Below the pieces are notes generated by a model that made no database searches, had not been told where the DNA came from, and worked only from the letters and a program-made list of their open reading frames with translations. The translations under genes and the position numbers were made by a program. A DNA stretch of 64,000 nucleotides. Source: an uncultured Gemmatimonadales bacterium. GTDB lineage: Bacteria > Gemmatimonadota > Gemmatimonadetes > JACCXV01 > JAHWKZ01. Numbering within the stretch: position 1 is the first letter of the stretch; each line of letters begins with the position of its first letter. Below, one piece after another: positions 7,539-60,960 of this stretch. The DNA is taken from the NCBI GenBank assembly GCA_947259315.1, contig CAMYLR010000006.1:135687-199686 (forward strand). The letters are read 5' to 3'.

Positions 7539-8843
7539 CTAGTAGAGACGGGTGATGGTCGTGCCCGGGTAGTATGACCCCAGCACCTCCCCATACCCCA
7601 GCCCAGCACGAGCCCTCGCCATCGCACCGACCTGGCACATCCCGACCCCATGTCCCCATCCCCCACCAACCAGAGACAACTCGGCGACTCGACCCGCTGA
7701 GTACGTTGGCCGTGCCAGGAACATCGTGCTCCTCAGCCAACGCCCCTCGGCGTCAGCAAACAACGTCCGGATGTCATTCTCACTGATTAGGTAGCGACCG
7801 GTAGTCGTCGTGACGGCAACTGTGACCACCCGCCCCTCCGGGGTCGTGTTGAGGATCTCAACGTCTCGGACCGTCCCCGCGCCGGCAGGCGGCAGGGGCA
7901 ATAGCTGGGGCAAGTTACGAGCGATCGTCTCCTCGAGTTGCTCCGCATCAAACGTCGCCGTCCAGCGAAAGTACTTGGACTCTTGACACCAGAAGCCTTC
8001 GCCGTCAGGATGCTGATCACTGACCGACACCAGATACGGCGCCGGTGGGTCATCAAAAACCAGCTCGACCCGCGCGGTGTGTCCACCACAGGTCGAATGG
8101 TAGTAGGCATCGATCAAAGCGCCGTTATAGAGCAACGTCTCGCCGCGAGTTGTCTCGACCGCACGGACGGCTGCCGAGTCGGCCACGTCAGCGAGCCCCT
8201 TGTAAGCTTGGTCGAGCACAGTTCCGTAGATGTCGAATCCCAAGTTGGCTCGACTCCCCATGCGCTTCAGCGCATAAGTTCGGGCCGCCACCGCCTGGGC
8301 GCGCAACGCCTCAAATGCCTCGCTGCCGGCTTGACCAAGCTCCTTTGCCACCACGCCCTCGAGATATGTCTCGATCCCCACGACGTTGACGCCGGTCAGG
8401 GTTCCGTCTGGACGGAGCTGAACCTGCACCGAACCTGGGAGGAGCTGTCCCGCCAGTGAGACTGGCTCAGGGCCTAGAGGGTCGACGATCAACGGGCCGG
8501 TGTGGGGCTCAGAAAGATGGCCGTCGGGGCGTTCCACTCTGAGAGAGTTCTCAAACGGAAGTCGGACGATCCGCCAAGATTCACTACCTTCAATAACGGC
8601 GATCGGAGTGGAGTCACCTTCTTCGTGAATCCACCATCGACCAGCCCCCCCGACCTGCACCGCCGAGTCACCCCACGCGATGCCGACGTGAAGCGTCGGC
8701 TCGTCCACAAACCACGGCTGCCTGGTCTCACCCACGCGCGGAGCGGTGCGCCCACCGCCGCAATTGACGGCAACCACGAATGACAGAACTGCGATCAACA
8801 AAAAAAAGCGCCCACTTGGGGCGCGGCCCGAGCTAGCAGACAC
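7539..8843 (-). CDS. SpoIID/LytB-domain protein, probable peptidoglycan lytic transglycosylase
   Basis: This 434-residue protein starts at GTG 8843, with a hydrophobic N-terminal segment that reaches a cysteine (AVNC). That could be a lipobox, but Asn before Cys is unusual. The SpoIID core begins near VNVVGIETYLEGVVAKE, whose glutamate corresponds to the family's catalytic acid. It continues through AQAVAARTYAL, the metal-linked YYHSTCGGHT motif and the C-terminal GGGWGHGVGMCQVGAMA motif. SpoIID enzymes cleave denuded glycan strands in sporulating Firmicutes, but diderm non-sporeformers carry relatives. A terminator-like hairpin lies inside codons 7-15. Confidence 0.88.
   Translation of the reverse strand: MSASSGRAPSGRFFLLIAVLSFVVAVNCGGGRTAPRVGETRQPWFVDEPTLHVGIAWGDSAVQVGGAGRWWIHEEGDSTPIAVIEGSESWRIVRLPFENSLRVERPDGHLSEPHTGPLIVDPLGPEPVSLAGQLLPGSVQVQLRPDGTLTGVNVVGIETYLEGVVAKELGQAGSEAFEALRAQAVAARTYALKRMGSRANLGFDIYGTVLDQAYKGLADVADSAAVRAVETTRGETLLYNGALIDAYYHSTCGGHTARVELVFDDPPAPYLVSVSDQHPDGEGFWCQESKYFRWTATFDAEQLEETIARNLPQLLPLPPAGAGTVRDVEILNTTPEGRVVTVAVTTTTGRYLISENDIRTLFADAEGRWLRSTMFLARPTYSAGRVAELSLVGGGWGHGVGMCQVGAMARARAGLGYGEVLGSYYPGTTITRLY
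8800..8824 (-). terminator. Terminator-like hairpin inside the start of the SpoIID-like gene
   Basis: On the minus strand GCGCCC-CAAGT-GGGCGC is followed directly by eight T residues. This is a textbook intrinsic terminator shape: six GC pairs, a five-base loop and a U-tract. It sits about 20 bases inside the coding frame of the SpoIID-like gene and just after the stop of the upstream secreted protein. It could terminate the upstream transcript or attenuate the SpoIID-CAP pair. Confidence 0.6.
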
Positions 8844-8847
8844 CCGG

Positions 8848-9318
8848 TTACTCCAGCGATCGGCTCACACGGATTCCGAACTTCCCCTGCGCGACATTAT
8901 CGACATCAACACCCATGTTGAACCCGCTTCTTTCGAACCGCGTGGAGGACTGAAGCCGCGCGTAGGTGAGGAGCGCGCTCCGAGCCCAGCTATCGAAACG
9001 ACTGTCGCTCCACTGATCCGCCATCCACAATCCTACGTCGTGCATGAAACCGCTCCCTCCCGCAGCTCCCGAAGCCACCGGAAAACCGAAGGCCGCAGCG
9101 AGCTCGCGCTCGAATGCTGCATGACGGAGCAGGATCTCGAGTTCGGGAGCTGGCCCCATCGCCAGTCCCTGAGCGGTCACCGCACGTGCATCGAGCGTCG
9201 GACCCACGCCGTTTGACGATGCGGGCTCAGGCTCCGCATGCTGAGCAAGAGCCTCGGACCCGATTGCGAGCGCAACGGCGGCGAGCGCAAACAGCAGGCA
9301 GTTACGGTTGGCATGCAT
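8848..9318 (-). CDS. Secreted hypothetical protein
   Basis: The ATG at 9318 (a GTG nine bases upstream is also possible) gives 156 residues with a clear Sec signal peptide, with likely cleavage after SEALA. The mature part is polar, with HMD/GFMHDVGLWMADQW near the middle, and ends in a short amphipathic stretch GIRVSRSLE, reminiscent of a beta-strand near an outer-membrane C-terminus. I recognise no family. It begins 56 bases downstream of the ssb stop and ends four bases before the SpoIID-like start, so it may belong to a cell-envelope group. Confidence 0.6.
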   Translation of the reverse strand: MHANRNCLLFALAAVALAIGSEALAQHAEPEPASSNGVGPTLDARAVTAQGLAMGPAPELEILLRHAAFERELAAAFGFPVASGAAGGSGFMHDVGLWMADQWSDSRFDSWARSALLTYARLQSSTRFERSGFNMGVDVDNVAQGKFGIRVSRSLE

Positions 9319-9374
9319 GGAAGTCACGATAACCTACTCCCCACACCACCCTCAAGTTCCATGCCGCCGTCAAC

Positions 9375-9830
9375 TTAGAAGGGGAGGTCGTCGTCCTGGT
9401 CGTCGGTATCAGGCCAGTCCACACTGCGGTCATCCCCACCGGCTGGCCCCGGGGCGGCTGAGACCCGCGAGCCAAAATCACCCCGGCCTGCACCGGCTTG
9501 GTCGAGCATGATCATCTGATCGGCGACGATCTCGGTCATGTACCGTTTCTGACCGGTTTTTGCATCATCCCAAGACCGCGTCTGGATCCGACCCTCGATG
9601 TAGACTTTGCTACCCTTTGTTAGATACTGCTGGCAGATCTGGGCCAACCTGCGCCAAGCCACAATGTTGTGCCACTCAGTGTTCTCTTCGGTTTGGCCGT
9701 CGTCCGTCCTGCGACTCCAGTTGGTCGCCAACCTGAACGTCGCCACCTCTATGCCGCTTGCCGTATGCCGGAGCTCCGGGTCGGCACCGAGGTTTCCAAT
9801 CAACATGGCCTTATTCAGACTGCGGGCCAC
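9375..9830 (-). CDS. ssb: Single-stranded DNA-binding protein
   Basis: The GTG at 9830 is preceded five bases away by a perfect AGGAGG, fixing the start. The 151-residue product has the SSB OB-fold ([17 protein letters not shown] at the N-terminus, then [20 protein letters not shown] and [13 protein letters not shown]). A flexible Gly/Asp-rich tail ends in DDDLPF, the acidic tip that recruits replication and repair partners. Length and tail are normal. It follows rodA by 12 bases and is probably cotranscribed with the shape operon. Confidence 0.97.
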
Positions 9831-9842
9831 ACACGCCTCCTC

Positions 9843-11081
9843 TCATGCACGCTTGGTTAAGAATCGCTCATACCATATCTGTCGCCACAGAGCCACCGTC
9901 ACGAAACACACCACGAGAAACGATCCGCCCTTCGAAAGGAACGGTAACGGTAACCCAGTGATCGGTAACAACCCAACCGTCATGGCAGTGTTAATCGCCA
10001 CGTGGCTGGCGATCAACACGACCAAACCAAAGGCCAGGGTACTGCCAAACGCATCTGGATGACGTTCGGCGATTCGGACTCCTTCGACCAAAAGGAGAGC
10101 GAACAGCGTGAACGCGACCAGCACGCCAATGAACCCCAGCTCTTCTCCGAGAACGGAGAAGATAAAGTCTGTCTGTCGTTCGGGAAGGAACGCTAGTCGC
10201 TTCTGGGTGCCCTCCATAAAACCTTTTCCGAACCAGCCGCCCGAACCGATCGCGACCTTGGATTGGATGACGTTCCATCCGGCGCCCCGCGGATCGATCT
10301 CGGGCTCCAGAAAAACCAATAGTCGTTGCTTCTGATAACCGGCCAGAGAGTTCCACAACGGCAGCGCGACGATTCCCATGAGCAGGTTAGTGCTACCAAC
10401 GTATAGCCACGTACCTCGACCGGGATTGAGCAAGAACAGAATGAGACCGACGCCGACGATATAGAATGACCAGAGAGGAAGTGAGAACGTCAGCAGGATG
10501 CTAACGATCGGCGACAAGAGCAGAAACACTAGCAGTGGTGGAGCCCCTGCCCAGAAACAGAGCCCAGCGAGAAGCAGTACGAACACGGTTGCCGTGCCGA
10601 TATCCGGTTGGAGCATCGTCAGCGCGCCCGGAATCGCCATCAGGACCGCCGGTATCGCCAGCGCCGACAGCTCACGGGGCGGGTGCTCGAGAGACGCGAC
10701 CCACCGCGCCACAACGAGAATGGCACCGAGTTTCGCGAACTCCGAAGGTTGGAAACCGAGACTGCCGAACCGAATCCAAGATTTCGCTCCACCGACAGCC
10801 GGAAAAGCCAGCACGACGATCAAAAAGAATACGCCTACTCCGTACACAAACCAACTGGACTTCTCCACGAAACGTAAAGGCAGCACACCGACGGTCGCGT
10901 ACGCGATCAGCGCCACAAACAACCATATGACCTGGTACTGCCAGAACTCCGAGTTCGCGCCCGAAGCAGTCTGCCCAGCGGAGTAGAGCATCGCGAGGCC
11001 ACTCAGCGATAAAACCAGAGCCAGCCCGAGCAGATACCAGTTGTGGGAGATCGTGAGTCGATTGCTGACGAGCTGGGCCAC
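9843..11081 (-). CDS. rodA: Rod-shape peptidoglycan glycosyltransferase RodA (SEDS family)
   Basis: RodA polymerises lipid II during side-wall elongation with PBP2. The 412-residue protein has about ten hydrophobic segments and the SEDS hallmarks GFQPSEFAKLG, the long periplasmic loop with the motif RQTDFIFSVLGEELGF, and HVAINTAMTVGLLPITGLPLPFLSKGGS near the C-terminus. The start is GTG. It begins four bases after the PBP2 gene, the standard rod-complex pairing. Confidence 0.96.
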   Translation of the reverse strand: MAQLVSNRLTISHNWYLLGLALVLSLSGLAMLYSAGQTASGANSEFWQYQVIWLFVALIAYATVGVLPLRFVEKSSWFVYGVGVFFLIVVLAFPAVGGAKSWIRFGSLGFQPSEFAKLGAILVVARWVASLEHPPRELSALAIPAVLMAIPGALTMLQPDIGTATVFVLLLAGLCFWAGAPPLLVFLLLSPIVSILLTFSLPLWSFYIVGVGLILFLLNPGRGTWLYVGSTNLLMGIVALPLWNSLAGYQKQRLLVFLEPEIDPRGAGWNVIQSKVAIGSGGWFGKGFMEGTQKRLAFLPERQTDFIFSVLGEELGFIGVLVAFTLFALLLVEGVRIAERHPDAFGSTLAFGLVVLIASHVAINTAMTVGLLPITGLPLPFLSKGGSFLVVCFVTVALWRQIWYERFLTKRA

Positions 11082-13535: not shown

Positions 13536-14464
13536 AAGGAGTCGCCGTCGACCTCGGCTGGCGTGATCGGGTCACCTCCGACAGCCGATGCTCGGCCACC
13601 CAACCGCTCGCCTACCATCGGCGGATGCGCGTAACCGGGCCAGAACAGTCTCAGGTCGTCACCCGCTGAGCCGTCCGATGACGACTCCCGCATGAGGACA
13701 AACACCGCCGTCAACGAACCCAGATCGACTACGGGTTCCACCAGATCGATCTGCTGCAACCCGAGTCGTTGATCTTCCTGGCTAGCAGTGACCTGCCCGA
13801 TCGGGATCCCGCGCGGGAAGACGCCGCCGTAACCCGACGTCACGATTCGATCCCCAGACTCGGAGCGCGCCCTCAGCGGCAGCAACAATCGCAACCGACC
13901 GGCCGCGCTGGGGCGCACAATCCCATACTCGAGATGATCTCCACCGAGCAGCAGAGCACTAGCGCTGAAGTCTGGGTGTGTGTACAGCATGACTTCGCTT
14001 GTGCCCGGCCCGACCGAGACGACCTTGCCCACCAAACCCTCATCGGTCACCACTGGCAGGTTCGGCGTCACGTTGTCGGTACGACCGGCGTCGACGATCA
14101 TCACGCTCGGCGTGGTCGCGAAGTCACGACTGATCACTCTGGCCGCAGTAAGGTGCACCGGCGAATGCTCGGCGAAGTCGAGCAAGTTCCTGAACTCCCG
14201 GTTCTGCGCTCGAACGATGTCCGAATCCGAGAGTTCGATACGTGCCCGTTGAAGCTGACGCCTCAGGTTCGCGTTCTCTGTTCTCAATCGTAAGTAGCCG
14301 CCAAACACCTCACGCACTCGAGACACTGGCAGCGTTACAACGTGATTGACTGATTGGGCGATTGAGTCTTGACGTGAATCGGGTAGCGCTAAGAGGACCA
14401 GCGATGCTGCGGCGCAGGCGATGGCAACGGCTTCAGCACCGCGATCAGGGGGTAGCAGCGGCAT
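13532..14464 (-). CDS. mreC: Rod shape-determining protein MreC
   Basis: The 310-residue protein has an N-terminal membrane helix, a coiled-coil segment (about 60-95; LRTENANLRRQLQRARIELS) and the two beta-barrel subdomains of MreC, seen in VTDEGLVGKVVSVGPGTSEVML and VTSGYGGVFPRGIPIG. MreC is periplasmic and activates PBP2-RodA. It begins 22 bases after mreB and overlaps mreD. Confidence 0.96.
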   Translation of the reverse strand: MPLLPPDRGAEAVAIACAAASLVLLALPDSRQDSIAQSVNHVVTLPVSRVREVFGGYLRLRTENANLRRQLQRARIELSDSDIVRAQNREFRNLLDFAEHSPVHLTAARVISRDFATTPSVMIVDAGRTDNVTPNLPVVTDEGLVGKVVSVGPGTSEVMLYTHPDFSASALLLGGDHLEYGIVRPSAAGRLRLLLPLRARSESGDRIVTSGYGGVFPRGIPIGQVTASQEDQRLGLQQIDLVEPVVDLGSLTAVFVLMRESSSDGSAGDDLRLFWPGYAHPPMVGERLGGRASAVGGDPITPAEVDGDSL

Positions 14465-14486
14465 CAGCCAACGCCGAGCCGTGGAT

Positions 14487-15539
14487 TCAGTTGCGGCCGC
14501 TCAAGACGAGCACGCCGCGATACTTGTCCGGGTCGTCCAATATCCGACCGGTGCCACGGACCACGCACGTCAGGGGTTCCTCATCGACGTTTATGGGAAG
14601 GTTGGTGTTCTCACGCAGCAGCGAGTCGAGACCTCGGAGGAGCGCGCCACCGCCGGTCATCACGATACCACGATCGACGATATCGCTTGCCAGTTCCGCC
14701 GGGGTCCTCTCGAGCGCCTGACGAACAGCGTCGACAACCGCCATGATGGGCTCCTGGATCGCGTCGCGTATCTCGGCCGAGTTCACTCGCACCGTCTTCG
14801 GGATCCCGGTCACAACGTCGCGTCCCTTGACGTCCATGACTTCATCTCCGTTGACGGATTGATAGGCCGAGCCGATCGTCATCTTCACCTGTTCCGCCGT
14901 CGGCTCACCGATCACGATGTTGTAGTCCTTCTTTAGAAAGTGCTGTATCGCCTCGTCGATCTCATCACCACCCACCCGGATCGATATGTCGCTCACAATA
15001 CCAGACAGCGCGATGACAGCGATCTCGGTGGTTCCCCCGCCGATGTCGATCACCATGTTACCGGTTGGTGTTTCCACAGGAAGCCCGACGCCGATCGCAG
15101 CCGCCATCGGCTCGGGGACGAGGTACACCTCTTTCGCGCCAGCCGACTCGGCGCTATCTCGCACCGCCCGCTTCTCGACTTCGGTTATGCCGCTAGGAAC
15201 CGAGATGAGAACTTTCGGGCGTATCGGCATGAGGCGATTTCGCAACACGCGCTTCAAGAAATCGCGGAGCATCTTCTCCGTTACTTCGAAGTCTGCAATC
15301 ACGCCGTCTTTGAGGGGTCTCACAGCGTTGATCCCGGCCGGAGTTCGACCCAACATTTTCTTCGCCTCGAGCCCCACGGCGAGGATCTCACGCGTGTCTG
15401 CGTCCAGCGCGACAACCGACGGCTCGTTCAGGACGATGCCTCGTCCTTTCACATATATGAGCGTGTTGGCGGTCCCAAGATCAACCGATACCTCGCTAGC
15501 CAGAAACGGTCCAGCGTTCGACCTGAGGAAGCTCAGCAC
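14487..15539 (-). CDS. mreB: Rod shape-determining actin homologue MreB
   Basis: MreB filaments position the elongation machinery under the inner membrane. The 350-residue protein has the actin-fold nucleotide motifs: phosphate 1 (VDLGTANTLIYVKGRGIVLNEPS trimmed here to DLGTANT), phosphate 2 (MVIDIGGGTTEIAVI) and the adenosine motif (IVMTGGGALLRGL). A GTG codon starts the frame, giving MLSFLRSNAGPF, seven bases after the dut stop. It opens the mreB-mreC-mreD-mrdA-rodA run. Confidence 0.97.
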   Translation of the reverse strand: MLSFLRSNAGPFLASEVSVDLGTANTLIYVKGRGIVLNEPSVVALDADTREILAVGLEAKKMLGRTPAGINAVRPLKDGVIADFEVTEKMLRDFLKRVLRNRLMPIRPKVLISVPSGITEVEKRAVRDSAESAGAKEVYLVPEPMAAAIGVGLPVETPTGNMVIDIGGGTTEIAVIALSGIVSDISIRVGGDEIDEAIQHFLKKDYNIVIGEPTAEQVKMTIGSAYQSVNGDEVMDVKGRDVVTGIPKTVRVNSAEIRDAIQEPIMAVVDAVRQALERTPAELASDIVDRGIVMTGGGALLRGLDSLLRENTNLPINVDEEPLTCVVRGTGRILDDPDKYRGVLVLSGRN

Positions 15540-56672: not shown

Positions 56673-56732
56673 GTCCACCCCCTCCGATCGCGGCTGTGCG
56701 GGTCTATCATGATGATTTGCGGGACGGTCGAT

Positions 56733-56760
56733 CTTGGTGTGTCACTACCGACCGACCAAG
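56733..56760. promoter_or_regulatory. Inverted repeat in the ugd-NfuA divergent region
   Basis: CTTGGT and ACCAAG are separated by 16 bases in the 141-base divergent gap, and an overlapping CGGTCG/CGACCG repeat lies nearby. The dyad is in the right place for an operator or promoter element, but six-base arms can arise by chance. Confidence 0.25.
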
Positions 56761-56813
56761 CTATTTTTGATCCGTTCGTCATTCAAGTGCGCAAACCGGC
56801 AACCGGAGTCGGA

Positions 56814-57407
56814 ATGATCAAGCTGACCGAAGAAGCCCGGAGCAAGATCTCAGACGCCCTCAGCAGGGCCACCCCCCCGCGGCGACATCTGAGGATTCAT
56901 GCCAGCGTCGAAGCGGGGACCTTCGCCTATCACCTCGAAGCCCTGACCGACGAGATGGTTACGCCAGACGACACCCTGGTCGACTGTGGCGAATTCGACC
57001 TCGTGTTGGACCCCGAGAGCGCTGAGCGCCTCGCGGGCACCCGAATCGACTATCGGGAGACGCTGGTGGAGAACGGGTTCCGGTTCGATAATCCGAACCG
57101 ACCCGCCAGCCCAACACTCCCCTCCGGAGAGCGAACTGACCTCGAGGGTCCGGTGCCAGATCGCGTTCGGATGTTGCTCGATACCGAGATAAACCCGGCC
57201 ATCGCCGCGCACGGCGGGATGGTCCAGCTCGTCGACGTCCAAGACAACCGTGTTTATTTGGCGTTTGGCGGCGGGTGTCATGGCTGCGGAATGGTAGACG
57301 TGACCCTCAAGCAGGGCATCGAGACACGGATCAGGGAAGCGGTGCCAGAAGTAGCTGAAGTGATCGACACGACCGACCACTCAACGGGAGCCAACCCGTA
57401 CTATTAG
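56814..57407 (+). CDS. nfuA: NfuA-like Fe-S cluster carrier
   Basis: This is the second plus-strand gene. The ATG at 56814 has GGAG upstream and gives 197 residues; the frame is open further upstream but lacks a ribosome site and homology. The N-terminal half (1-95) follows the A-type HesB/IscA fold with ENGFRFDNPN but lacks the usual cysteines, as in E. coli NfuA. The C-terminal NifU domain has GGGCHGCGM (C155, C158), the Fe-S ligand pair. It is convergent with the large radical SAM gene, separated by a strong terminator. Confidence 0.9.
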   Translation: MIKLTEEARSKISDALSRATPPRRHLRIHASVEAGTFAYHLEALTDEMVTPDDTLVDCGEFDLVLDPESAERLAGTRIDYRETLVENGFRFDNPNRPASPTLPSGERTDLEGPVPDRVRMLLDTEINPAIAAHGGMVQLVDVQDNRVYLAFGGGCHGCGMVDVTLKQGIETRIREAVPEVAEVIDTTDHSTGANPYY

Positions 57408-57446: not shown

Positions 57447-57474
57447 CCGGTCGCGGGAATCATCCCGCGACCGG
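57447..57474 (+). terminator. Intrinsic terminator after the NfuA-like gene
   Basis: A perfect twelve-base stem (CCGGTCGCGGGA / TCCCGCGACCGG, four-base loop) is followed on the plus strand by CTTTTCT. It lies between the convergent NfuA-like and radical SAM genes. The minus side lacks a good T-tract, so it may serve mainly the plus-strand gene. Confidence 0.85.
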
Positions 57475-57486
57475 CTTTTCTGATTG

Positions 57487-59670
57487 CTACAGGTCTATCT
57501 GTACCAACTTGTCGTCGGCAGCAGGCTTTTTCTTGAGCACCATCTGTTCATAGTACTCACGCACCATCGCCGCCTCCCGAGCCGCCTTCTTCGACGCGAG
57601 CCGTTCCTCGTGCGCGTTCTGAGGGCCGTCACCGCGATCACGCACGCGCGAAGCGTCTGCCTCGTGCACATCGAGCGCGTGCTCGTAGTTCTCGAGCGGG
57701 ACTTCTTTCCCACCGGCGAAGATCTCGTGCCGACCGTGCTCCTTGTACCACTCGGCGACGGTGGCGTTCTTGTGCATGTGCTCGATGATGTTCCGCCATC
57801 CGTGTCCGGTGTTGTAGGCGCAGAACGAGATCTCGCCTTCCTGCGTGGCGTAAGGGATGATGCACATCTCGGTGCGCCGGAAGTCATAGTTGAACAGATC
57901 CTGGAACCACATTCCGGCCACAAACAGGAAGTTCCAAGGATCCTTGCGGCGCTCCCAAGCGCCCTCAGCATCGAGGGATCCGTAGTCCTTCCCTGTCAGA
58001 CCGTACGACTTGTCGAACTTCTTCAGCAGCTCCTTGAGATTGAGGCTGGGGGGAGCCTCGAACGGCTTGTAGTTCTTCAGCAGTGCCAGCGCGATCATTG
58101 TGTTCGACAACCACTTCCCACGCGCTGCGTCGGTGACCTTCGAGAAATCGGACGCCAGTCCCGGGATGTCCAAGAACTGAGGCACAGGAGCGAACTCCTT
58201 GGTCTCCTTGTTGAGCATGAACGCCGTCCCGACACCGCAGTTGGGATGGCAGCCGCAGCTCACCTGGCCCCATTCGGCACCCGGCCCGTGCACTACGTCG
58301 GCCAAATCCGAGAACGTCCCCATCAACGACAGCGGGAACCAATCCCGAAGTGGCTCGGTCACGTTGAGCTGCTTCTTCACGTCGTGCGCCATGTGGCTCA
58401 GCGTGTAGCGCTGCCGCATCCGCCGCTCGTCGGTGATCTCCTCATCGCGACCGGTGAACGAAACCGGCTGGAAAGCGATAAAGGCGATCTTCTTGGGGTT
58501 GTCGAGCGCGAACCGCACGATCGGACCGACCTGATCGTTGTTGACGCTGTTTACCAGAGTCGTGACCAGGATCACCTGAACGCCGGCCGCGTACAAGTTG
58601 TCGATCGCCTTCAACTTGACGTCGAACAAGTTGCCGACTTTCCGGTGGGCATTGGCGTCGTTGCCGATGCCGTCGAATTGCAGGTAGGCGAATCGCAACC
58701 CCGCCTCGGCAGCCTCCTTCGTGAACTCTAGGCTCTTAGCGAACTCGATCCCGTTCGTCGCCGCCTGTACCGAGTTGTAGCCGATGTCGCGGCAGTACTT
58801 GACCGCCCGCAAGAAATGCGGCGAGAGCGTCGGCTCGCCACCCGAGAACTGAACCGACATCTGACGCTTAGGCTTGATCTGGAGCGCGTTGTCGAGAACT
58901 TCCTTGATCTCATCCCACTCCAGCTCATGTACGAAACCAACCTGATTGGCGTCCATGAAGCACGGATCGCACATCATGTTGCAGCGGTTTGTCAGATCAA
59001 CCGTCATCACCGCGCCGCGACCATGTTTGATCGTGGAGCTGCCATGGTTGTGCAGATCTCCGTCGTTGTGGGACCGCAAATCACGCCCCGGGAAGTTCGA
59101 CTCGATCCACTCGAGGAACTCCGAGTCGATCGCCATCAAGTCCTCGAAGCGACCGTGATCCGGGCACTCCTTGACCATCCAGATCTGACCGTCCCGTTCC
59201 ACGATCTGAGCCTTGATCTCGCCAACCTTGTCGTTGATCAGGACTGTGTAATCCTCTTCGCCATCGATGATCCGTTGACGGGCCTCGACCACGCACTTGG
59301 GGCACAACGAGTCCGTTTCGCGCGGCCAACCCAGCTTCGGTTTTGACTTCTCCCACGACTTGAGCAGCGGTTTATCGGACCATTTGGGCGTGAACGATGG
59401 GTTCGGACGGTATTGGTTGAAGAGCTGGATTCCACGGAAGAGTCCCGAGGCGACCTTGGTGACACTCCAGTCGAGTGTTTTCGCGAGTCGCTTGCCCACT
59501 CCGAACTTGGCGTTCCCACGTGGATCCAGGTGCCGATCGGGGACCGTGAACGAACTCGTATCGAACTCGCCGGCAGCCCCGTCGCCGTTATCATCCACAC
59601 CGGCGGCTTCGAGCGCTCGGCGCTGGGCCTCAGTGGCCGGGTCGGCGACCTGCGTGTTCACCTTGATCAT
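57487..59670 (-). CDS. Tes/MSS-like radical SAM protein (possible membrane-spanning lipid synthase)
   Basis: ATG 59670 with GGAGG upstream gives 727 residues. The N-terminal region has CPKC (C123, C126) and a later KECPDHG (C169), resembling the rubredoxin-like part of the archaeal tetraether lipid synthase family. The radical SAM motif is LTNRCNMMCDPC (C230, C234, C237), with GGEP at 277-280. Further cysteines are at 472, 474, 478, 603 and 617, which could hold auxiliary clusters. The layout matches the Tes and bacterial MSS groups that join lipid tails; lipid chemistry here is inference. It lies downstream of a second radical SAM gene. Confidence 0.75.
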   Translation of the reverse strand: MIKVNTQVADPATEAQRRALEAAGVDDNGDGAAGEFDTSSFTVPDRHLDPRGNAKFGVGKRLAKTLDWSVTKVASGLFRGIQLFNQYRPNPSFTPKWSDKPLLKSWEKSKPKLGWPRETDSLCPKCVVEARQRIIDGEEDYTVLINDKVGEIKAQIVERDGQIWMVKECPDHGRFEDLMAIDSEFLEWIESNFPGRDLRSHNDGDLHNHGSSTIKHGRGAVMTVDLTNRCNMMCDPCFMDANQVGFVHELEWDEIKEVLDNALQIKPKRQMSVQFSGGEPTLSPHFLRAVKYCRDIGYNSVQAATNGIEFAKSLEFTKEAAEAGLRFAYLQFDGIGNDANAHRKVGNLFDVKLKAIDNLYAAGVQVILVTTLVNSVNNDQVGPIVRFALDNPKKIAFIAFQPVSFTGRDEEITDERRMRQRYTLSHMAHDVKKQLNVTEPLRDWFPLSLMGTFSDLADVVHGPGAEWGQVSCGCHPNCGVGTAFMLNKETKEFAPVPQFLDIPGLASDFSKVTDAARGKWLSNTMIALALLKNYKPFEAPPSLNLKELLKKFDKSYGLTGKDYGSLDAEGAWERRKDPWNFLFVAGMWFQDLFNYDFRRTEMCIIPYATQEGEISFCAYNTGHGWRNIIEHMHKNATVAEWYKEHGRHEIFAGGKEVPLENYEHALDVHEADASRVRDRGDGPQNAHEERLASKKAAREAAMVREYYEQMVLKKKPAADDKLVQIDL

Positions 59671-59790
59671 CAACGTCCTCCTCCATATCGGTGAGGGATA
59701 GACTTAAGCTGGAATCTGGTCAATCCTACTTATCTTAGCCTAAGCCAACCTCAGTGTAAAGCCTCGGAGATTCACTGTTCTACCGCTCAA

Positions 59791-60960
59791 CTAAGCCTGA
59801 GCCCCCCGACTCTGCCACAGCAGGCTCGGCAACGAGTGAGCAAAGCCGCTGGCGGTGTAGAGCACCTCGACTTCGCCGCGGCACGAATACCAGCACGCCG
59901 TGCAGGTGTTTTTGGCGTGAGCTTCGTGGAGCTGGTCCACCACGTGATCGACGTCATCGGTGCGCAGGTTCCCGCACGGCTCGCTCTTGTTGAACTCGAC
60001 ACATTTGGAAACCACCATCTGGTTGTCGATGTTGAACATCGCCTTTCCGGCGATACAGCCCTCGATCCCGTCGTTCGCCGCCACATCGAACTTCTCGAGG
60101 TACTTCTTGTTGGCGTGGAACGTCTCTGGATAACGCCGCTTCAAATCGAGCAGCACCTCGGTGGCGCCATCGAGATGACGCTGGCCCTCGTTCCCCGTTT
60201 TCATAACCGAGTAGGGCTGTACTTGCCAGTAGACACCCAACTCGCGAGCCAGCTCACACAGCGCCCCCATTTGATCCAGGTTGTCGTCGGTCAGCACCGA
60301 GATGATCTGAACCCGCTGGTAGGAGCGGTCGACGCGATTGTCGCGGAGCTGTTCGATCGCTTTTATGGCGCGTTCGAACGCGAACTTGACGCCGCGGTGC
60401 CTGGCGTGCTTCTCCGGGTCTGCGTAATCGATCGACACCGAGCAACCCCACAGACCGGCCTCCCACAGCTGGCGAGCCCGTTTGGGCGTCATCCCTGACC
60501 CGGAGGTCGTCAAATACGGGAAATGATCCCGTGACAGTACTTCGATGATGGTGTGGATGTCGCGCCGGAGCATCGGCTCGCCGCCGGCCAGCGAGACGAT
60601 CACCGAACCCAAGCTGGACAGCTTCTTGGCTCCGACTACGAAGTCCTCAAGCGAGCACTCTTCGTGCGGCTTGAAGTCGTTCTCCCAGTAGGTGCAAAAA
60701 GAGCAACCATAGTTGCAGTTATACGTGACTTGCCACGTCACCCAGACCGGCTGTCCGGTGGCGTACGCCTTTACGAGGCGATACTTCTTGCCCCATCGAG
60801 GTCGCCTATCGTCGGCCAAGTACTCATCGACAGACACCGGTGGACCAATCGGAATTTCGATGACCTCGCTCGACCCGTTCACCCACTCCGCCCCAGGCTT
60901 AGGGCGGCTGGTGGGAGTTGTTTCGGGGAGCAGGGTTTCAAGCGGTATGGGCCTGATCAT
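59791..60960 (-). CDS. Radical SAM protein with SPASM-like C-terminus
   Basis: The 389-residue protein has the radical SAM cluster site NCNYGCSFC (C82, C86, C89) and GGEP (126-129). A C-terminal cysteine set (C302, C320, C329, C353, C356, C360) resembles SPASM/twitch auxiliary-cluster domains. Residues 170-180 (WGCSVSIDYA) match the strand region of this superfamily. The substrate is unknown. It precedes the Tes-like gene by about 120 bases in the same direction, and the pair probably works on a shared substrate or pathway. Confidence 0.88.
   Translation of the reverse strand: MIRPIPLETLLPETTPTSRPKPGAEWVNGSSEVIEIPIGPPVSVDEYLADDRRPRWGKKYRLVKAYATGQPVWVTWQVTYNCNYGCSFCTYWENDFKPHEECSLEDFVVGAKKLSSLGSVIVSLAGGEPMLRRDIHTIIEVLSRDHFPYLTTSGSGMTPKRARQLWEAGLWGCSVSIDYADPEKHARHRGVKFAFERAIKAIEQLRDNRVDRSYQRVQIISVLTDDNLDQMGALCELARELGVYWQVQPYSVMKTGNEGQRHLDGATEVLLDLKRRYPETFHANKKYLEKFDVAANDGIEGCIAGKAMFNIDNQMVVSKCVEFNKSEPCGNLRTDDVDHVVDQLHEAHAKNTCTACWYSCRGEVEVLYTASGFAHSLPSLLWQSRGAQA

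Follow-up and report, generated by a model that had tools for sequence, protein, structure and literature searches.

The 64,000-nucleotide stretch of DNA analysed here (the window), from an uncultured Gemmatimonadales bacterium, encodes a 728-aa radical SAM protein that, on the joint evidence of sequence profiles and structural modeling, is a homologue of the archaeal tetraether lipid synthase Tes/GDGT-MAS and belongs to a distinct bacterial subfamily. By analogy with the archaeal enzyme, we consider it reasonably likely that this is a bacterial Tes-type lipid synthase of an acidobacterial kind, which would couple acyl chains at their tails, with an ester-linked product of the iso-diabolic type as the likeliest outcome.

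A bacterial subfamily of Tes homologues

The gene for the Tes-like protein lies at positions 57487..59670 of the minus strand, and both it and the neighbouring radical SAM frame are present on that strand where the preliminary description had placed them. The listed frame of 728 aa opens with a TTG at 59673, but the start is probably the ATG one codon downstream at 59670, which is preceded by GGAGGAGG and gives a protein of 727 aa; residue numbers throughout follow the 728-aa numbering. Pfam detects a radical SAM domain in both frames (E=5e-17 and 9e-21) and, in the Tes-like protein, also the HMPTM zinc ribbon domain. The top NCBIfam model for the latter is Tes (NF045702; E=2.7e-96, 323 bits, against an equivalog cut-off of 450 bits that it does not reach), followed by TrsS at 215 bits (cut-off 490). 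With Pfam values of 5e-17 and 9e-21 and a Tes value of about 3e-96, these matches lie far beyond chance. MJ0619 (7tol) is the closest solved structure by sequence (E=1.3e-65), and an AlphaFold model (pLDDT 84, pTM 0.85) matches 7tom with a TM-score of 0.85 (on target) and E=3.8e-35, thus displaying the overall fold of GDGT-MAS; the next radical SAM fold is recovered only at E=2e-8.

The likeness to Tes, which the preliminary description had proposed, is therefore upheld by profile, fold, and catalytic residues. Of the checks suggested there, the HMM search returned Tes as the best NCBIfam model, yet under its cut-off, and the structure prediction gave a model closest to 7tom; the protein does not group among B12, methyltransferase, or peptide-modifying members of the radical SAM superfamily, a placement that would have spoken against the proposal. 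As to membership in the Tes family proper, the homology stands, but the score below the NF045702 cut-off and the missing cysteines of the N-terminal cluster [Fe4S4]N mark a separate subfamily.

Metal sites and anatomy of the Tes-like protein

We name the reference residues of MJ0619 as in PMC9433317 and read conservation across clade A, which comprises 106 homologues besides the window protein. From the N-terminus, the protein presents a rubredoxin-type metal site, C124-x2-C127 ... C170-x2-H173 (59155..59304, minus strand; PF23545 and alignment), the radical SAM CX3CX2C motif at C231-C238 (58960..58983, minus strand; Pfam and alignment), and a C-terminal auxiliary cluster region (57820..58239, minus strand; alignment), in which C479, M588, C604, Y608, and C618 correspond to C338, M439, C455, Y459, and C470 of MJ0619. 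The motifs first noticed in the sequence of this protein are thereby confirmed: LCPKC...CPDH as rubredoxin-type, CNMMCDPC as CX3CX2C, and C479, C604, and C618 as residues aligned to the C-terminal ligands of MJ0619. The radical SAM cysteines, the C-terminal cluster ligands, and the equivalents of Met439 and Tyr459 are invariant across the 106 clade A rows, and Gln268, Ser271, and Arg275 (MJ0619 numbering) are also retained in the window protein. At the rubredoxin site, the equivalent of C33 is present in 105 of 106 clade A rows, with a gap in the remaining one, and that of H36 in all 106; the CPxC pair, which precedes the part of MJ0619 covered by the alignment, was identified directly in the sequences.

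The stretch equivalent to the MJ0619 [Fe4S4]N ligands C73, C77, and C80 (59017..59067, minus strand) is cysteine-free, HNDGDLHNHGSSTIKHG. These cysteines are found in none of 115 sequences (the window protein, 106 of clade A, and 8 of clade B) and are kept in 10/10 bacterial rows of the true-Tes-like type. An extra CxC (SCGCHPNCG or SCSCHPNCG; 58237-58260, minus strand; alignment) precedes the first C-terminal cluster ligand, C479, in the window protein and its aligned clade A and clade B relatives. Upstream of the MJ0619-aligned part, a predicted N-terminal helix (residues 59-88; 59410..59499, minus strand; predicted structure and hydrophobic moment) is strongly amphipathic, with a moment of 0.52 that is equalled in 0.05% of shuffles; as modeled, it would suit a possible docking to the membrane.

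Set against the archaeal enzymes (MJ0619, 7TOL/7TOM; MA_1486; Saci_0703), the window protein thus shares the predicted fold, the rubredoxin site, the radical SAM cluster, the C-terminal cluster with its Met ligand, Tyr459, and the Gln268/Ser271/Arg275 loop. It differs in having only about 30% identity over the aligned region, a score below the cut-off, and no [Fe4S4]N cysteines, in adding an N-terminal region with an amphipathic helix before the rubredoxin site, a longer insert at that site, the extra CxC, and a C-terminal extension, and in its host, a bacterium without GGGPS.

Genomic context and probable acquisition from Acidobacteriota

Convergent with the Tes-like gene is a gene for an NfuA-type Fe-S carrier (56709..57407, plus strand; Pfam, NCBIfam, and tree), and between the two falls a terminator-like hairpin of 12 pairs with a T-rich tail (57447..57474, plus strand), recognized by consensus match only. 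A promoter-like TTTACA-17-TAAGAT lies ahead of the Tes-like gene (59732..59760, minus strand; consensus), one of two such sites observed in the region versus 1.3 expected by chance; an Rfam search near the locus matched no RNA element. Two further Gemmatimonadota genomes from the same class have paired UDP-sugar dehydrogenase genes that adjoin with a gap of about 65-100 bases and are followed by YfiO-NadD-SecA; in the window, this pair is separated by the SPASM-like gene, the Tes-like gene, and nfuA. The Tes-like gene is carried by each of the four additional genomes sampled in the window family, with a shared order where contigs allow.

The closest named relative is from a Gemmatimonadetes MAG (L035; 83% identity, identical gene order), and the next 79 loci, at 63-77% identity, are nearly all labelled Acidobacteriota; across Gemmatimonadota the gene is patchy. 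The tree unites the window protein and those of four genomes of its family in one group (100/100), which falls inside an acidobacterial clade, where it branches with nine acidobacterial rows (98/95), and a single clade of the window family with the other sampled Gemmatimonadota copies is rejected (p=0.0004). This nesting among acidobacterial copies argues that the window gene was probably acquired by horizontal transfer from Acidobacteriota, the direction being based on nesting under a midpoint root. Further, the window NfuA groups with the Tes-adjacent NfuA of sister acidobacteria (100/100) and not with other Gemmatimonadota NfuA proteins, which suggests that the Tes-like gene and nfuA most likely travelled together.

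A conserved neighbourhood in Acidobacteriota was considered and rejected, as the loci share only lineage-specific genes for DivIC, phosphomannomutase, SurE, PCMT, and QueG-like proteins; the exception is nfuA, beside Tes in the sister lineage. Plasmid records yielded only distant radical SAM matches at 24-30% identity. Clade B, about 52% identical to the window protein, occurs in two further Gemmatimonadota families (f3 and f5; L177, L178, L179, L010) as well as in Acidobacteriota, and its presence in these other Gemmatimonadota is probably an independent acquisition. One locus labelled Betaproteobacteria (L097) shares a genome family, by search grouping, with Candidatus Acidiferrum, so that its label is probably wrong.

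The SPASM-like neighbour

In the window family, wherever contigs allow, the Tes-like gene is immediately preceded by a gene for a 389-aa radical SAM protein with a SPASM-like C-terminus (59791..60960, minus strand; Pfam, NCBIfam, and predicted structure). Across the window's Gemmatimonadota family, its identity is 70-89%, and six cysteines in its C-terminal part are conserved within the same genome family. The full SPASM consensus has seven cysteines. Hence, of the SPASM-like set first ascribed to this smaller frame, the six C-terminal cysteines are borne out and the full seven-cysteine consensus is not. Its best NCBIfam model is AhbD (89.9 bits, under the cut-off of 500), and its predicted structure, of moderate confidence (pLDDT 70), is closest to BlsE and SkfB. 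The protein is absent beside acidobacterial Tes homologues, its adjacency being confined to this one Gemmatimonadota family. The view of the two genes as a general lipid-linking pair is accordingly abandoned, since outside that family the partner has no Tes neighbour.

A SPASM radical SAM protein, Gms, bridges archaeal lipid chains (PMC11186832). The window partner resembles the Gms/AhbD type in joining a radical SAM domain to a SPASM-like C-terminus and in having AhbD as its best model, but departs from AhbD in its score (89.9 versus 500 bits) and in a fold nearest to BlsE and SkfB, Gms being compared by description only. That an acidobacterial synthase was here joined to a dedicated and possibly Gms-like lipid-modifying partner, with NfuA supplying Fe-S clusters, in an undescribed two-step pathway, seems to us quite unlikely.

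Proposed reaction and its alternatives

If the protein works as MJ0619 does, SAM at its CX3CX2C cluster would give rise to a 5'-deoxyadenosyl radical, which would abstract a hydrogen near the terminus of a first fatty acyl chain; the carbon so activated would then stay attached to a cluster sulfur of the C-terminal [4Fe-4S] site until a second hydrogen abstraction, from a second chain, joined the two tails (Csp3-Csp3) into a membrane-spanning lipid. The likeliest product would be an iso-diabolic-acid-type lipid formed from iso-C15 phospholipids with the ester linkage kept. NfuA would probably aid the supply of Fe-S clusters, and the SPASM-like neighbour is a putative accessory limited to this Gemmatimonadota family.

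The choice of ester-linked substrates draws on single-family searches of the window genome, which is 96% complete. Searches with PF06050 and PF01869 found no Ger/PlsA-type fusion: these domains (of BcrAD and HGD-D type) lie on separate neighbouring ORFs, and the matches were rejected as Ger because the ORFs are separate and part of a benzoyl-CoA-reductase-like cluster. That set (G000:C26:26731-30679) comprises a 907-aa frame with two PF06050 domains and two PF01869 ORFs, and is found in the window genome and its genus mate but not in the other family members searched. A PF06050 match is missing in most of the searched genomes that hold the Tes-like gene. Neither the window genome nor its family has a PcrB/GGGPS-family gene, which makes archaeal isoprenoid lipids unlikely substrates. 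Since no Ger/PlsA fusion and no GGGPS were found, the coupling of ester-bound iso-fatty acyl chains is favoured over that of ether lipids, and the ether-type product entertained in the preliminary description loses ground as far as Ger/PlsA and GGGPS are concerned. Co-occurrence with Ger/PlsA, which goes with Mss where ether lipids are made, is not seen in the window genome and is unneeded for ester-linked products.

The distribution of the subfamily bears on the product. Copies with at least 57% identity occur in about 108 of 247 Acidobacteriota genomes, counted over the matches listed. In the order containing a Gp1 (SD1) genome, a Tes-family match occurs in 119 of 120 genomes. It exceeds the Tes cut-off in 13 of them, and almost all of the remainder are window-like at about 300-336 bits; in another acidobacterial family, 50 of 51 genomes have such a match. 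Cultured SD1 strains of Edaphobacter, including E. aggregans, contain 12-30% iso-diabolic acid (PMC11354219), and PMC8941075 credits E. aggregans, a brGDGT producer, with only one Tes homologue, which is 32% identical to MA_1486; the identities of clade A to MJ0619 span the same range as this published value. Iso-diabolic acid is also made by Chloracidobacterium (PMC12816986), an uncultured member of which has the gene (L090). Linked by taxon and published percent identity rather than by strain, these data on gene distribution and lipids support the coupling of iso-C15 tails. Solibacter usitatus speaks against it, since Tes homologues and brGDGTs are present there with iso-diabolic acid undetectable (PMC10087280).

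Two further observations concern acidobacterial paralogues. In three Acidobacteriota genomes of one order (L174, L175, L176), window-type and true-Tes-like genes lie within about 8 kb (in L174, at 8256-10415 and 13858-15492), and this proximity raises the possibility that the two act in one pathway. A divergent paralogue of some acidobacteria (L188, 8832-10721), 41-45% identical to the window protein, lacks the equivalents of C455 and Tyr459, which suggests a different reaction.

The same chemistry could instead operate on alkyl-ether (diether) lipids to yield brGDGTs, as proposed for Solibacter usitatus: the brGDGT makers E. aggregans and S. usitatus both possess Tes homologues, and Tes tolerates ester and ether lipids alike (PMC9433317, PMC13274423). 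With PF06050 and PF01869 split over ORFs, no Ger/PlsA fusion, and PF06050 mostly missing from genomes bearing the Tes-like gene, we regard this as unlikely. A distinct subfamily without [Fe4S4]N and with an extra CxC (SCGCHPNCG) beside C479 might also catalyze another radical SAM reaction on lipid chains, bridging them elsewhere or modifying them, much as the radical SAM lipid enzymes Gms and Grs carry out different C-C couplings; the invariance in clade A of Met439, Tyr459, and the C-terminal ligands of Tes, and a predicted fold far closer to GDGT-MAS than to any other solved radical SAM protein, render this very unlikely.

The MJ0619 family was formerly tied to pterin methylation, whence the name of the HMPTM domain, and the TrsS selenoproteins are related to it. 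A non-lipid enzyme, to which the second place of TrsS in NCBIfam (215 bits) might point, is nevertheless highly improbable, as Tes outscores TrsS with full-length coverage and the window protein keeps both Met439 and Tyr459, which the distant relatives L014 and L143 lack. Finally, the patchiness of the gene across Gemmatimonadota could hint at an assembly artefact or a decaying passenger, but this is scarcely credible for a gene carried, in shared order where contigs allow, by 4/4 other family genomes sampled, and forming in the window one open frame with intact catalytic residues and a housekeeping region around it. Tail-to-tail coupling of ester-linked acyl chains thus remains our preferred reading.

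Relation to known systems and significance

Among the acidobacterial Tes homologues reported earlier (Zeng 2022; Halamka 2022), that of E. aggregans, at a published 32%, falls within the range of clade A, and the published top matches from Koribacter (42%) and Solibacter (40%) fit, by identity, the true-Tes-like type, in which the [Fe4S4]N cysteines are kept; the split between this type and clade A is not discussed in the passages of the two papers drawn on here. Mss of Thermotoga and Bacillota is reported to share the catalytic architecture of Tes (PMC13274423). As far as its description goes, Mss parallels the reaction proposed for the window protein in coupling fatty acyl chains tail to tail. 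At E<=1e-20, the Tes model finds nothing in the genome of Thermotoga maritima, compared with 1e-97 for the window protein, so that the two probably represent separate branches. The threshold published for homology to T. maritima Mss is E<=1e-30 with >30% identity.

Among the lipids of Acidobacteria, iso-diabolic acid is a major one, and brGDGTs, which serve as markers of past temperature and pH, are likely to derive from it. The tail-coupling enzyme of Acidobacteria has been described as still unknown (PMC10087280), and we propose the clade A family as a strong candidate for this missing activity. A very common acidobacterial subfamily lacking one Fe-S cluster is now set apart from the true-Tes-like type. 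In the literature searched, no tie of Gemmatimonadota to such lipids was found. With the probable movement of the gene into Gemmatimonadota, these bacteria would, if the proposal is true, be possible sources of such lipids, and the subfamily gene would offer a testable marker for them.
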